From positions 372,001 to 436,000 of the forward strand of contig CADEFN010000001.1 of assembly GCA_902826615.1 (NCBI GenBank): a stretch of 64,000 bases of DNA, given 5' to 3'. Shown here in pieces: positions 27,762 to 33,024 of this stretch. The stretch is from an uncultured Gemmatimonadota bacterium. GTDB taxonomy: Bacteria > Gemmatimonadota > Gemmatimonadetes > Gemmatimonadales > Gemmatimonadaceae. A program made the translations under genes and the position numbers. Within the stretch, counting starts at the first letter, position 1. Each line of letters starts with the position of its first letter. The notes beneath the pieces are model-generated. The model was given only the letters and a program-made list of their open reading frames with translations. It searched no databases and was not told the DNA's origin.

Positions 27762-29930
27762 ATGACCAACAGCCTCCTTTCCGGCCTTCCGCGCCTCTCT
27801 CTCGGCGCGCTGCTCCTTTGCCCGTCGCTGGCCCTCGCCCAGTCGTCCACTGGCGACTCGACCACACTCAAAACCATCACGGTCACGGCCACCCGCCAAC
27901 CGACCGATCTTCAGAACGTCCCCGCTCCCGTTTCGGTGATCGAGGCTGGCGCGTTGCGTCGCCGGGCCCCTGGCGCGGTGGCCGAGATGTTTCGCGAGCT
28001 CGCGGGGGTCGATGTGGTCGGCGTGGGCGCCAATCAGCTGCGTCCCGCCATTCGCGGGCAGCGTGGGCAGCGCATCCTCCTGCTCCAGGACGGGCTCCGC
28101 ATCGGCAACTCACGCCGGCAGCAGGACTTTGGAGAGCTCCCGGCCCTGGTGGATGTCAGCAGCATCGAACGGGTCGAAGTGGTACGGGGGCCGTCGTCCG
28201 TGCTCTATGGCACCGATGCGATTGGTGGTGTGGTGAACCTGATCACGACGGCACCAGCCACTCGCACCAGCACGCCGGTTGTGAGCGGGCACGTGGGGTA
28301 TCGATATGGTGATGCCGGCTCCAGCAACCGCGGCGACGGGCAGGTGGCGGTGACCTCCGGTGGCTTTACCGCACGACTTGGCGGTTCGCTGCGTGATGTG
28401 GGCAACTACAAGGCCCCTGCAGGATCGTATGGCAAGGTAACGCTCACCAGCGATGCGCCGGTCATCGATGGCGGGGTTCGCGACCAGACACTCAACGGCT
28501 ATCTGGGCTGGCGCTCTGTCAGCGGTCACGGGATGTACCTAAAGGGCGAGCGATATGGTGCCGAGAATGCAGGCTTCGGTTTTGTAGAGCCTGCGCTGCT
28601 TGGCGGCAGCCAGACGCGCATCCAGATCCGCTATCCGGAGCAGCAGGTGGACCGCGTGACGGCCGGGTTCAACTCGGGGTTGCTCTCCTTTCCCATTGCC
28701 GACCGCGTCGACGTCTCGGTATACCGTCAAACAAATGGCCGCGACCTGGGACAGAACATCTTTGTGCCGTTTGGGCCGGGCACACCACCGGGGGCCGGGG
28801 TCGACATTCGCACCACCAATCGCACCGACGTCACCTCGATCGGGTTGCGTGCCGAGGCGACGCGTATGCTGAGCCGGGCAACGATCACCTATGGAGTGGA
28901 CTGGTTCCGCGATGACGCCGAGGGGCGTGACTCTTCACTCAGCACCGTGATTGGCTTTGGTCCCCCGCGGCCCACGGCCTCGCTGCGGACACAGGTGCCT
29001 AACGCTGAACTGTCGTCGGTAGGCATCTTTCTGCAGAACGATCTCCGGGTGCACGATCGCTTTTCGCTCATCGTGGGCGGGCGGTATCAGGGCACCAGCG
29101 CCGAGCCGCGGGCGACGGCTCGTCTGACCACCACACCACCAGCGGGCGCGAGCAACAACACCGGGGTGTACGCGGTCAACGGACTTTTCCGGGCGACCTC
29201 GCACCTCAACCTGGTGGGCACGGTGGGCCGCGGCTTCCGCGCCCCTAACCTGGTGGAGCGCTACTTCGATGGTCCCACGCCCGAGGGATCGGCGTATCAG
29301 AGTGCGACGCCGGACCTCAAGCCCGAGCAGAGCCTCAACGTCGATCTCGGGGCGCGCTGGCAGTCGCGCCGGGTGAATGCCGAAGTCTTCCTCTTTCAGA
29401 ATCGCATTGAAGACGGCATTCGTATTGCCGCGGCGGGCGATTCGGTGGGACGATTGCCCCGCTTTCGCAATGTGAACGTGACATCGCTGCGTGTGCGTGG
29501 CGCCGAGGTGGGGGTGAGCGGTGTGTTGCCGGCGGGCTTAACGGCGAGCGCCAACTGGTCGCGGCTCCTGACGAAGAATATCAGTGACCCGGCGCTGCCC
29601 GTGGGTGACGTCTTCGCCAGCAAGGTGAATGTGTCGTTAGGCTGGCGCGAAGCGCAGGGCCGTGTGTGGGGAGACTATGCGGTGCGCCACAACGGTCGTC
29701 AGTCGGAGATCGTGGCCGGCTCGAGTCCCGTTGGCGATGTGCTGCCGGCCTTCACGGTGCAGTCGGTGCGCGCCGGGGCGCGGCTCTGGACGCTCGGCGG
29801 CGTCACCCAGGAGGTTGGGGTGCAGGTCAACAATCTCACCAACGAGCTCTACGCCGAGGTGGCCAACGCGGGCTTCTTCCGTCCCGAGGCACGGCGCAAT
29901 GTGGTGGTGACGCTGGGGACGAGGTTCTAG
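27762..29930 (+). CDS. TonB-dependent outer-membrane receptor
   Basis: 722 aa. The signal peptide covers about residues 1-27 (LLLCPSLALAQ). The TonB box is probably KTITVTATR (about 37-45). The plug domain follows with IRGQRGQRILLLQDGLRIG (about 90) and VEVVRGPSSVLYGTDAIGGVVNLIT (about 133-157), both hallmarks of siderophore/cobalamin-type receptors. The rest is a beta-barrel ending in Phe (VTLGTRF). The start was placed at the ATG giving the clean signal peptide; a GTG lies 21 bases upstream. Ligand unknown; BtuB/FepA-like organisation suggests a metal complex or small cofactor. Confidence 0.9.
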   Translation: MTNSLLSGLPRLSLGALLLCPSLALAQSSTGDSTTLKTITVTATRQPTDLQNVPAPVSVIEAGALRRRAPGAVAEMFRELAGVDVVGVGANQLRPAIRGQRGQRILLLQDGLRIGNSRRQQDFGELPALVDVSSIERVEVVRGPSSVLYGTDAIGGVVNLITTAPATRTSTPVVSGHVGYRYGDAGSSNRGDGQVAVTSGGFTARLGGSLRDVGNYKAPAGSYGKVTLTSDAPVIDGGVRDQTLNGYLGWRSVSGHGMYLKGERYGAENAGFGFVEPALLGGSQTRIQIRYPEQQVDRVTAGFNSGLLSFPIADRVDVSVYRQTNGRDLGQNIFVPFGPGTPPGAGVDIRTTNRTDVTSIGLRAEATRMLSRATITYGVDWFRDDAEGRDSSLSTVIGFGPPRPTASLRTQVPNAELSSVGIFLQNDLRVHDRFSLIVGGRYQGTSAEPRATARLTTTPPAGASNNTGVYAVNGLFRATSHLNLVGTVGRGFRAPNLVERYFDGPTPEGSAYQSATPDLKPEQSLNVDLGARWQSRRVNAEVFLFQNRIEDGIRIAAAGDSVGRLPRFRNVNVTSLRVRGAEVGVSGVLPAGLTASANWSRLLTKNISDPALPVGDVFASKVNVSLGWREAQGRVWGDYAVRHNGRQSEIVAGSSPVGDVLPAFTVQSVRAGARLWTLGGVTQEVGVQVNNLTNELYAEVANAGFFRPEARRNVVVTLGTRF

Positions 29931-29984
29931 TAGAAACACATCTCCTTCTGAGAATTGTCGCCGAGGTCCGCACGGTGGACGCGA

Positions 29985-30491
29985 TCATCTGATGGAACCA
30001 CCGAATGCCATGTACGCAATCTTCCACTCTCCAGTCGGACCGCGTCGCAGCACCCAGACATAGCGTCCAACACGTTTCCCAGAGCTAGGTCCGGAGTCTG
30101 GACCGTACTCACCGACTTCGAACCCCCAGTCACCGTGTACGCTCGTCTCGGCAGGATACTGCACCCACGGGTTGATTCCCGTCACCTGTGAGAAAATGGA
30201 GTTCTGCCATTCGGCCACGAACGCGTCCCTGCCCACGATCGTGGCGCGTTGGCCGTCCGGTGGTTTGAGGCCATTCCGACCCAGAACAAAATGTTCGGCA
30301 ATGGTCGTACCGAGCAATGTGGAGTCTCCCTGCCGCATCGCGCGCACAAAGCGCAAGCGAACGTCGCCGATCTTGCGCACGGCGACGGCCGTCGAATCTG
30401 ATGATGTCGTCGAGTCGCGTTGCGCGAGGACATCAACTGGCATCAGAAGAGCAATGACAATGAGGGAGAGGGTGCTGAAACATCGGCGCAT
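29985..30491 (-). CDS. Secreted SnoaL/DUF4440-like (NTF2-fold) protein
   Basis: 168 aa with a signal peptide (residues 1-23, ending PVDVLAQ). The mature part has an NTF2-like cone layout: a first helix RLRFVRAMRQGDSTLLG, a TIAEHFVLG strand, GRDAFVAEWQNSIF, and a final strand pair GRYVWVLRRGPTGEWKIAYMAF (residues about 140-161) characteristic of DUF4440. Such proteins are often small enzymes or binding proteins of unknown ligand. It is divergent from the CadC-like regulator gene, which may control it; that is inference. Confidence 0.75.
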   Translation of the reverse strand: MRRCFSTLSLIVIALLMPVDVLAQRDSTTSSDSTAVAVRKIGDVRLRFVRAMRQGDSTLLGTTIAEHFVLGRNGLKPPDGQRATIVGRDAFVAEWQNSIFSQVTGINPWVQYPAETSVHGDWGFEVGEYGPDSGPSSGKRVGRYVWVLRRGPTGEWKIAYMAFGGSIR

Positions 30492-30634
30492 TTGAATCCT
30501 CCGGGTGGCGTCGCGTACACTGATTGTCGAGTCTGTGCAGTTGGGCTATACTCAAGATCGTGTCGGCAAGCGCAACGAGTTCTCTCTGAGGCGACGCTGA
30601 GTTGTTAGCATTTGTGCCGTTGAACGCTGAAGAA

Positions 30635-31474
30635 ATGCCGCTAGGCCCCAGCGAGTGCTCGGACGAGCAGCGACTGGTGGCGTCGTTCAACGGCTTTGAG
30701 CTTGACCTTACATCGTACGAGCTGCGTCGGCTCGGTAGCGTGATTCCGCTCCAGCGCCAGCCGGCGGCACTACTTGCCCTGCTGCTCAGGCGCCAAGGGG
30801 AGTACGTGACACGACACGAGATTCGACGGTATCTCTGGAAAGACAACGCAGTAGACGCGGATGCGGGGATCAACTACGCCATTTGTCAGATCCGCCGAGT
30901 GTGTGAACCGGCAACGCCCTCATGTCTTGAGACGCGACGAGGCTTTGGGTATCGATGGGTCGGGACTGTCAACGTGATGGATCGCAACGGTCACGAGCGA
31001 ATGGAGAGATCTCTCGCAACGCCGCTATGGCGGAAGGCGGTACGTTGTGCCCGAGCGGCGGCCATTGCTTCCACGATTCTGCTATTCGCTGGAACACCCC
31101 GAGAAGCCGCACATCCGATTGCGACCACCATCGCGTTCGCAGAGTTTGAGAACCTCACGGACAACGTGTGGTGCAGTGCCGTCGCACGGGCGGTGGAAAA
31201 GAGCGTCGGCTCAGCGGCGCGCAAGGTCGATCCACATCTCGGTGTCGTACACCGCACGGTGAGTCCCACTCGAACAGCGAGCTCAACGCCGGCGCCGGCA
31301 TACCTCGTTACAGGTTCCGTATGGTCCCAGGAGAGCGGGCATCAGGTGACCTTACGCGCGGTGCGACTACGAGACGGCGCAGTCGTCTGGACTCACTCAA
31401 CGGACTCCCGGACGGCAATGCAGCAGCCACTGCAAATTGCCTCTCGTCTCGTCAAGGCACTGCGATCCGGGTAA
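30635..31474 (+). CDS. CadC-like membrane-anchored transcriptional regulator
   Basis: 279 aa. An OmpR/PhoB-type winged helix fills about residues 12-110: FNGFELDLTSYELRR, a recognition region with QGEYVTRHEIRRYLW, and the wing RRGFGYRWVG. A single hydrophobic helix follows (about 142-158), then a periplasmic part of about 120 residues with a TolB-like pattern (FAEFENLTDN, PAYLVTGSVWSQ, LRDGAVVW). This is the CadC/ToxR layout: DNA-binding inside, sensor outside, no phosphorylation. In-frame TTG and GTG codons lie upstream; the ATG after GAAGAA was chosen. The most likely target is its own divergent intergenic region. Confidence 0.8.
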   Translation: MPLGPSECSDEQRLVASFNGFELDLTSYELRRLGSVIPLQRQPAALLALLLRRQGEYVTRHEIRRYLWKDNAVDADAGINYAICQIRRVCEPATPSCLETRRGFGYRWVGTVNVMDRNGHERMERSLATPLWRKAVRCARAAAIASTILLFAGTPREAAHPIATTIAFAEFENLTDNVWCSAVARAVEKSVGSAARKVDPHLGVVHRTVSPTRTASSTPAPAYLVTGSVWSQESGHQVTLRAVRLRDGAVVWTHSTDSRTAMQQPLQIASRLVKALRSG

Positions 31475-31890
31475 CCCGTACGTTCTTCCCGGTGCAGGGC
31501 TTATCGCGGCGCGCCGACGAATGATTGTTTGGGCCGCCGTACACCTCTGGCTGATGCCTGGTGATGTAATGCGCAGCGTTAGGCATGAGCACAGTCAACC
31601 CGTGGAAGAGATGCAGCGCCGCTGAAATTTCCATCGGGCGGCTTTGGGGTAACCCGGTTCCACAGAGACCAGCAACATAGGCACTTCGACTTGTGCTTCA
31701 GCGACTGTCGAGTACGCCTGGCTCAGCGGTCGGCCTGCGGCTTCCTTGATCGGGAACGGGTGTGATACCGGGAAGGCAGTTGAGATGCGCCGATCATGCA
31801 CCTCGCGGCCGCCGCGACCACCCCGCATCTTCTCGCCGCCGTCCGTGCGAAGTAATTGCACGGGCGGCGGTGTCTTTTTCCGGAGCCCCA
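31475..31890 (+). promoter_or_regulatory. 416-base gap with structured leader of the M55 peptidase gene
   Basis: No convincing gene lies here. It holds one intergenic CGTTAGGC copy (core 31578-31584), an inverted repeat TCGCGGC-C-GCCGCGA (31803-31817) and a terminator-like hairpin (31834-31879) ending 2 bases before the ribosome-binding site of the next gene. The arrangement resembles an attenuator leader. A GGGCGGC at about 31635 could pair with the left arm of the terminator as an anti-terminator, which is speculative. Confidence 0.4.
31834..31879 (+). terminator. Terminator hairpin directly upstream of the M55 peptidase start
   Basis: A 15-bp stem (31834-31848 with 31858-31872, two G-T pairs) with a 9-base loop is followed by TCTTTTT. 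The CGGAG ribosome-binding site begins at 31881 and the ATG at 31891. It either ends transcripts from upstream or acts as an attenuator of the peptidase gene. Confidence 0.75.
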
Positions 31891-33024
31891 ATGCGCACAT
31901 CGGCCTTCGCGTTTGTCGTCACCCTCTTCGCCTGCTCCGCCCCCGGCGCTTCAAACGAAACGAGCGCCCCGGCATGGACCGCAGAAAATGGCGTGACCAT
32001 CGGCACTCCGCGTGCGCGAAATGGCGACACGTTGCGAGTGCTGGTCTATCATGACATGGAGGGACTCGCCGGTCAGGACGACTACCGCACCTTCAACTAC
32101 TCCCACCCCGAGTTCTACGCAAAGGGCCGCCAGTATCTCGTGGCCGACGTGAACGCCGTGGTGGATGGGCTCTTTGCTGGTGGCGCCACAAGTGTGGACA
32201 TCGTCGACGGGCACGGGAGCGGCAATCCGGCGCCCGATCTGGATCCGGCCCTGCTCGATCCCCGCGCGAAGCAGCTCACACGCGACTCGTCTTTTCGGCA
32301 GTACACCGACATCGTGACTGCGAACACCTACGACGCGATCGCCGCGGTTGGCATGCACGCCAAAACCGGCAGCAAAGGCTTTGCCTCGCACACGGTGACA
32401 CTCGGCATGGATCTCTGGATGAATGGCCGCTCGATCACCGAAAGCGAAATGGTGGCCTACTCCTGGGGACGTGTTGGTGTGCCGATGGTCTTTGTGTCAG
32501 GCGATGACAAACTGGCCGCAGATCTGCAGACCATGCCGTGGGTACGTTTTGTGGTCACCAAACATGCGACCAGTGCCAGCACCGTGACCCTGCGCAACGT
32601 GGACAGCGTGCATGCTGAAATGAAAGCGCAGGCGGCCGAAGCCATGCGCAAGATTGCCGACGCAAAAACAATCACGGTCAAGGAACCCGTGCAGGCCGCG
32701 CTGCGGGTGGTGTTGCCGGCGAGTTTGCGTCCACTCCGCGGAGTCCCCGGTGTCACGCTGTCGCCGGAAGGTGATCGCGTGGACTTCACCGCGAAGGACT
32801 TTCAGGAGGCGTACGACGGACTCAACTCGCTCATCGGGGTTGCGCGGCTGGCCTATCCGGCAACCCAGAACGAAGTGATTCGGGCGCGTCCCGACAGCAC
32901 CCTCATCGCCCGCCTGCAGCGCGAGCGTTTGATGGAGCGCTGGTTCGATGTCGAGTCGGGGCGATGGACGCCTCCCGTGCCCGCAGCTCCGGTTGCAGGG
33001 CGCAAGTACTACGGAGCGCAGTAG
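31891..33024 (+). CDS. M55 family D-aminopeptidase (DppA-like), lipoprotein
   Basis: 377 aa, lipid-anchored (lipobox TLFAC, about residue 11-15). Peptidase family M55 removes D-amino acids from peptides with a dinuclear zinc site. The first ligands are in HDMEGLAG (about 54), DGHGSGN (about 107) supplies another His, and VGMHAKTGSKGFASHTV (about 153) further His residues. A C-terminal region of about 100 residues ends RKYYGAQ. The CGGAG ribosome-binding site 6 bases upstream and the lipoprotein signal decided the start. Likely role: recycling of D-Ala-containing peptidoglycan peptides in the periplasm. A terminator-like hairpin abuts its ribosome-binding site. Confidence 0.85.
   Translation: MRTSAFAFVVTLFACSAPGASNETSAPAWTAENGVTIGTPRARNGDTLRVLVYHDMEGLAGQDDYRTFNYSHPEFYAKGRQYLVADVNAVVDGLFAGGATSVDIVDGHGSGNPAPDLDPALLDPRAKQLTRDSSFRQYTDIVTANTYDAIAAVGMHAKTGSKGFASHTVTLGMDLWMNGRSITESEMVAYSWGRVGVPMVFVSGDDKLAADLQTMPWVRFVVTKHATSASTVTLRNVDSVHAEMKAQAAEAMRKIADAKTITVKEPVQAALRVVLPASLRPLRGVPGVTLSPEGDRVDFTAKDFQEAYDGLNSLIGVARLAYPATQNEVIRARPDSTLIARLQRERLMERWFDVESGRWTPPVPAAPVAGRKYYGAQ

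Follow-up and report, generated by a model that had tools for sequence, protein, structure and literature searches.

A strong stem-loop followed by a T-tract stands directly in front of the gene for an M55 D-aminopeptidase-family protein in a bacterium of the family Gemmatimonadaceae. The hairpin is real, beyond chance. It has no comparable counterpart in front of the M55 genes of relatives and lies in a single-copy, patchy context. From this setting we infer which transcript the hairpin ends and how the M55 gene is transcribed. With roughly an even chance, it is the predicted terminator of an upstream unit, either a regulator gene or a non-coding transcript, and M55 would be expressed by read-through or from a close promoter that escaped detection. 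The original prediction had seen an attenuator or a ligand-responsive leader. In a tentative, species-specific form of that reading, M55 mRNA would start in the upstream gap, and the choice between termination at 31879 and read-through would depend on a signal, be it a protein, a ligand or the translation of a short leader open reading frame (ORF); we consider this possible and somewhat doubtful. Control by cell-wall peptides or a metal, as the original prediction suggested, is speculative. Taken as it is, the finding is of small importance: one species has a predicted intrinsic terminator at an unusual place. Regulated read-through, if true, would turn it into a newly evolved attenuator in front of a gene that stands directly behind another gene in many relatives.

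The hairpin in front of the M55 gene

The window, a stretch of 64,000 nucleotides, is part of contig 1 of a 5.9-Mb genome. The M55 gene (31891–33024, + strand) encodes 377 amino acids and was assigned by its reading frame and by Pfam (PF04951, E-value 1.1e-46). That translation begins at 31891 is borne out by L003, a same-genus relative with the same TCCGGAGCC..CATG context; the ribosome-binding site, CGGAG at 31881–31885 (+ strand), also recurs there in the same setting. The product is likely exported, judging by eye from a signal-like stretch at the N-terminus. M55 proteins at an E-value of 1e-60 or better are present in 4 of the 179 genomes of the family and in 33 of the 395 of the phylum, with the own genome counted in both.

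The stem-loop spans 31834–31872 on the + strand and has arms at 31834–31850 and 31856–31872 and the 5-nt loop AGTAA. Sequence and terminator scan give 17 pairs, G-T included, of which 12 are G-C. Without the two outer pairs the stem has the 15 pairs originally described, and both the stem and its T-run were confirmed. The T-tract, TCTTTTT, occupies 31873–31879 and is followed by C31880, CGGAG and the ATG at 31891–31893. The hairpin thus adjoins the ribosome-binding site as proposed, with one intervening base rather than two. The stable GC-rich stem with a T-tract directly 3' of it is the combination that defines an intrinsic terminator, and any transcript started upstream must read through it to reach M55, as the original prediction rightly held.

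Folded on its own, the 76-nt hairpin reaches −38.4 kcal/mol (z −4.59), and none of 200 shuffles was equally stable. None of 2000 dinucleotide shuffles of 31475–31890 gave at least 15 pairs plus a T-tract, and their longest perfect stem had 12 pairs, compared with the 17 observed. A loose consensus scan of 2.2 kb found one terminator site where shuffles gave 1.9. Thus, what is exceptional is the length of the stem and not the mere presence of a terminator-like match. The same scan found no terminator-like site on the reverse strand at the hairpin. The T-tract is confined to the + strand, in keeping with a terminator of upstream transcription. A repeated or mobile hairpin was rejected: neither the hairpin nor the 416-nt gap that contains it has a second copy in the genome, a repeat scan of the region found no repeats, which is weak evidence because the scan did not register even the hairpin as an inverted repeat, and a plasmid comparison returned no match.

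Terminators elsewhere in the genome

Genes were called in 2.0 Mb of the genome with a simple codon-usage caller, and a scan of both strands for hairpins with a T-tract, at an energy of −18 kcal/mol or lower, yielded 64 intergenic and 17 intragenic sites. Intergenic sites with a codirectional upstream neighbour mostly lie 4–48 nt past its stop (42 of 52). Ten intergenic sites, the M55 hairpin among them, reach −28 kcal/mol or lower, and eight of these ten are 15–35 nt past a codirectional stop. The M55 hairpin shares with such terminators a GC-rich perfect stem, a short loop and a T-tract, and its energy is that of the strongest 3' terminators of the genome, which argues for the end of an upstream unit. 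Its position differs in two respects, lying 360 nt rather than 4–48 nt past the codirectional stop and one base ahead of a ribosome-binding site. The distance counts against the upstream-unit reading, as does the finding that no + strand ORF of at least 20 codons ends 4–48 nt before the hairpin.

Proximity to the next gene is less unusual. In twelve rows of the census a codirectional start follows within 50 nt, and in eight of them an upstream gene ends 4–45 nt before the stem, with the terminator 13–47 nt ahead of the next start (one hairpin accounts for two rows through nested calls). An upstream gene's terminator close before a start is therefore not rare, which again favours our preferred reading. 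The census also contains a very strong hairpin at G000:C1:218013-218057 (21 pairs, −32.9 kcal/mol), which lies between two genes, 35 nt past the first and 37 nt ahead of the second.

The attenuator draws its main support from the orphan sites. Of the strong sites, 22 have no codirectional gene ending in the 60 nt upstream. Only two of these, the M55 hairpin and the terminator before hisG, have a same-strand start in the 60 nt that follow. The gene caller had overlooked the regulator gene at 30602–31474; at the true distance of 360 nt the M55 site is still an orphan by the 60-nt rule. The hisG site is a genuine histidine attenuator, so the argument from placement stands to that extent and weighs against a simple upstream terminator; beyond position, we found no support for an attenuator or ligand-responsive leader in conservation, leader structure or Rfam families.

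Comparison with relatives and with the hisG attenuator

Conservation of the stem in relatives had been set beforehand as a test of the attenuator. We collected 49 M55 loci, which after removal of the own locus, 11 duplicates and one without a usable start left 36 distinct relatives. None of the 36 has a comparable terminator before M55, L006 having contributed just 104 nt of upstream sequence to this check. A terminator of any kind within 150 nt upstream was found in one (L199), where it is weak (−12.3 kcal/mol) and ends 39 nt before the start. Two same-genus M55 copies among the 36, about 70% identical, have no terminator upstream. The attenuator reading thus fails this test. The 35 relatives lacking a terminator and the weak site in the 36th are as expected if the hairpin belongs to an upstream unit.

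The gene neighbourhood differs as well. In 23 of the 36 relatives an upstream open frame of at least 120 codons either overlaps M55 or stops no more than 13 nt from it, so the lone M55 gene behind a terminator is a local arrangement, which again fits an upstream terminator. Frames adjoining M55 occur in L031–L041 and others; the one checked, in L032, is an amidohydrolase. The pairing of an amidohydrolase with M55 suggests, from the gene content, a D-amino-acid or D-peptide operon.

The hisG attenuator served as a positive control. By reading, each of the 11 Gemmatimonadaceae loci (L058, L155–L164) has a terminator before hisG together with a leader ORF that contains a His-codon run; a strict scan recovered 10 of the 11, L162 containing N letters. 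The comparison was thus able to detect a conserved attenuator, and it detected none for M55. The two sites are alike in part: in both, the terminator lies about 20 nt ahead of the start codon, and no codirectional gene ends just upstream. They differ in that hisG has its His-rich leader ORF and conservation in 11 of 11 loci, whereas the M55 gap has neither a codon run nor conservation. Strength is no bar to attenuation, since the hisG terminator of L159 is also very strong (16 pairs, −36.6). Lineage-restricted, fast-evolving attenuators are covered by a general description in PMC2965389, which would accommodate an attenuator present in one species.

The gap upstream of the hairpin

The gap between the regulator and M55 covers 416 nt (31475–31890), as originally given. 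Its part before the hairpin (31475–31833, + strand) is non-coding by the searches that follow. Without the hairpin, this 359-nt leader folds like its shuffles, 45 of 100 of which were as stable (z −0.09), and its last 134 nt, hairpin excluded, are no better than average (z +0.93). The full 416 nt reach z −1.62, so the hairpin alone supplies the excess stability. A leader devoid of excess structure is consistent with the terminator of an upstream unit and speaks against an attenuator. Rfam returned nothing at the gathering threshold in the window besides a tRNA elsewhere in it, and only chance-level matches, far below gathering, in 31400–31950. A riboswitch or other known RNA family was therefore rejected, there being no match to a known aptamer and a leader no more stable than shuffles. 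A decayed gene was rejected likewise, as a six-frame Pfam search of the gap was empty up to an E-value of 1.

Nor is the gap conserved. Among the 395 phylum genomes searched, 11 others gave matches, all of them short, GC-rich stretches; two early ones (L024, L025) were viewed as alignments and the others judged by length and query range. The idea of a conserved gap was rejected on these grounds, and the single-copy state of the gap with such matches elsewhere favours a local upstream unit.

Translation of the leader offers the attenuator a mechanism. A 19-codon ORF (31796–31855, + strand), which we do not claim as a gene, has its stop inside the hairpin loop. In pyrBI-type coupled attenuation the leader ORF reads into the terminator, and the M55 ORF could be read in the same way, with a close ribosome preventing the hairpin from forming. 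It differs from the pyrBI type in having 19 codons, no clear ribosome-binding site and a frequency expected by chance: ORFs of at least 19 codons ending in the hairpin occurred in 49.65% of 2000 shuffles, about half, which counts against attenuation by this route. The leader frames contain no run of a regulating codon, their one Ala-rich stretch being unremarkable at the local GC content. We think it highly improbable that a young species-specific attenuator acts on the lone M55 gene, which lacks the usual operon neighbour, with read-through dependent on a ribosome on this Ala-rich ORF; were it so, M55 would be responsive to translation speed or alanine supply.

An anti-terminator was to be sought by folding the leader. 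The 5' arm of the terminator pairs with the gap no better than expected by chance, 247 of 300 shuffles being as good, which is unfavourable to an attenuator; the same test failed to separate the hisG controls, which also score like shuffles, and pairing energy was dropped as a discriminator.

The upstream unit and the expression of M55

The terminator may belong to the nearest codirectional gene, a winged-helix regulator (30602–31474, + strand; Trans_reg_C by reading frame and Pfam), whose stop lies 360 nt before the hairpin. A search of 178 further genomes of the family found no match to this regulator. The GC content over 29800–31799 is 0.585–0.623, compared with 0.645 in an 800-kb sample. 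Given the lower GC and a regulator without relatives in the family, this stretch is probably lineage-specific, and both features agree with our preferred reading. The patch at 29800–31800 also holds a DUF4440/SnoaL-like ORF with scores below the Pfam cut-offs, and is possibly acquired DNA.

We propose that a factor-independent terminator would end a + strand transcript from the regulator, leaving a 360-nt 3' tail, or alternatively one from a non-coding or decayed unit within 31475–31833. The lone M55 gene would have come to stand directly behind this terminator in the lineage-specific, lower-GC stretch, and would be weakly expressed, either through read-through or from a promoter near the hairpin that is invisible to our scan.

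Promoter evidence bears on each reading. Our scan found no two-box promoter on the + strand of the gap. At a score of at least 7 it recognises 12.4% of 428 divergent upstream regions and 1.5% of 1162 intragenic stretches, and with such low sensitivity its silence says little about where M55 transcription starts. A single TAnnnT box stands at 31479; its sequence, TACGTT, is identical to that of the −10-like box ahead of the hisG leader in the same genome, a point for an attenuator transcribed from within the gap, although a matching −35 box is absent.

It is unlikely that M55 transcription instead starts within or just past the hairpin, so that the mRNA would not contain the full stem and the hairpin would insulate the gene. 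The empty two-box scan of the gap is compatible with such a start, and three other starts in the genome stand 13–25 nt behind an upstream gene's terminator, so crowding of this kind is tolerated; against it, no TAnnnT box occurs in 31485–31890, the scan itself saying little either way. Very unlikely is a separate small RNA encoded in 31475–31833 with the hairpin as its 3' end. An orphan terminator preceded by a non-coding gap would fit such an RNA, but there is no Rfam match, excess structure or recognisable promoter, and no homologous gap in 395 phylum genomes besides the short GC-rich matches.

The hisG leader of Gemmatimonadaceae

The conserved histidine leader-peptide attenuator before hisG in Gemmatimonadaceae is a by-product of the census and is more useful than the M55 hairpin. 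In the genome under study (L058, 2644–2860; G000:C1, about 302644–302860; − strand) it has MNLYSRHHHAHHVHGHLGLGGSGVR as its leader, with the terminator 21 nt ahead of hisG; across the family loci the terminators end 18–92 nt ahead of the gene. Neither of two hisG loci outside the family has the leader-peptide arrangement, six hisG attenuator loci searched gave no Rfam match at gathering, and a literature search on leader-peptide attenuation in Gemmatimonas found no paper. By eye, TTGAC[GC] followed after 17 or 18 nt by TAnnnT precedes the hisG leaders of L154, L155, L157, L161 and L162, and in these loci 7 to 11 nt separate the end of the promoter-like match from the leader ATG. Thus, the hisG leader-peptide mRNA may be nearly leaderless.
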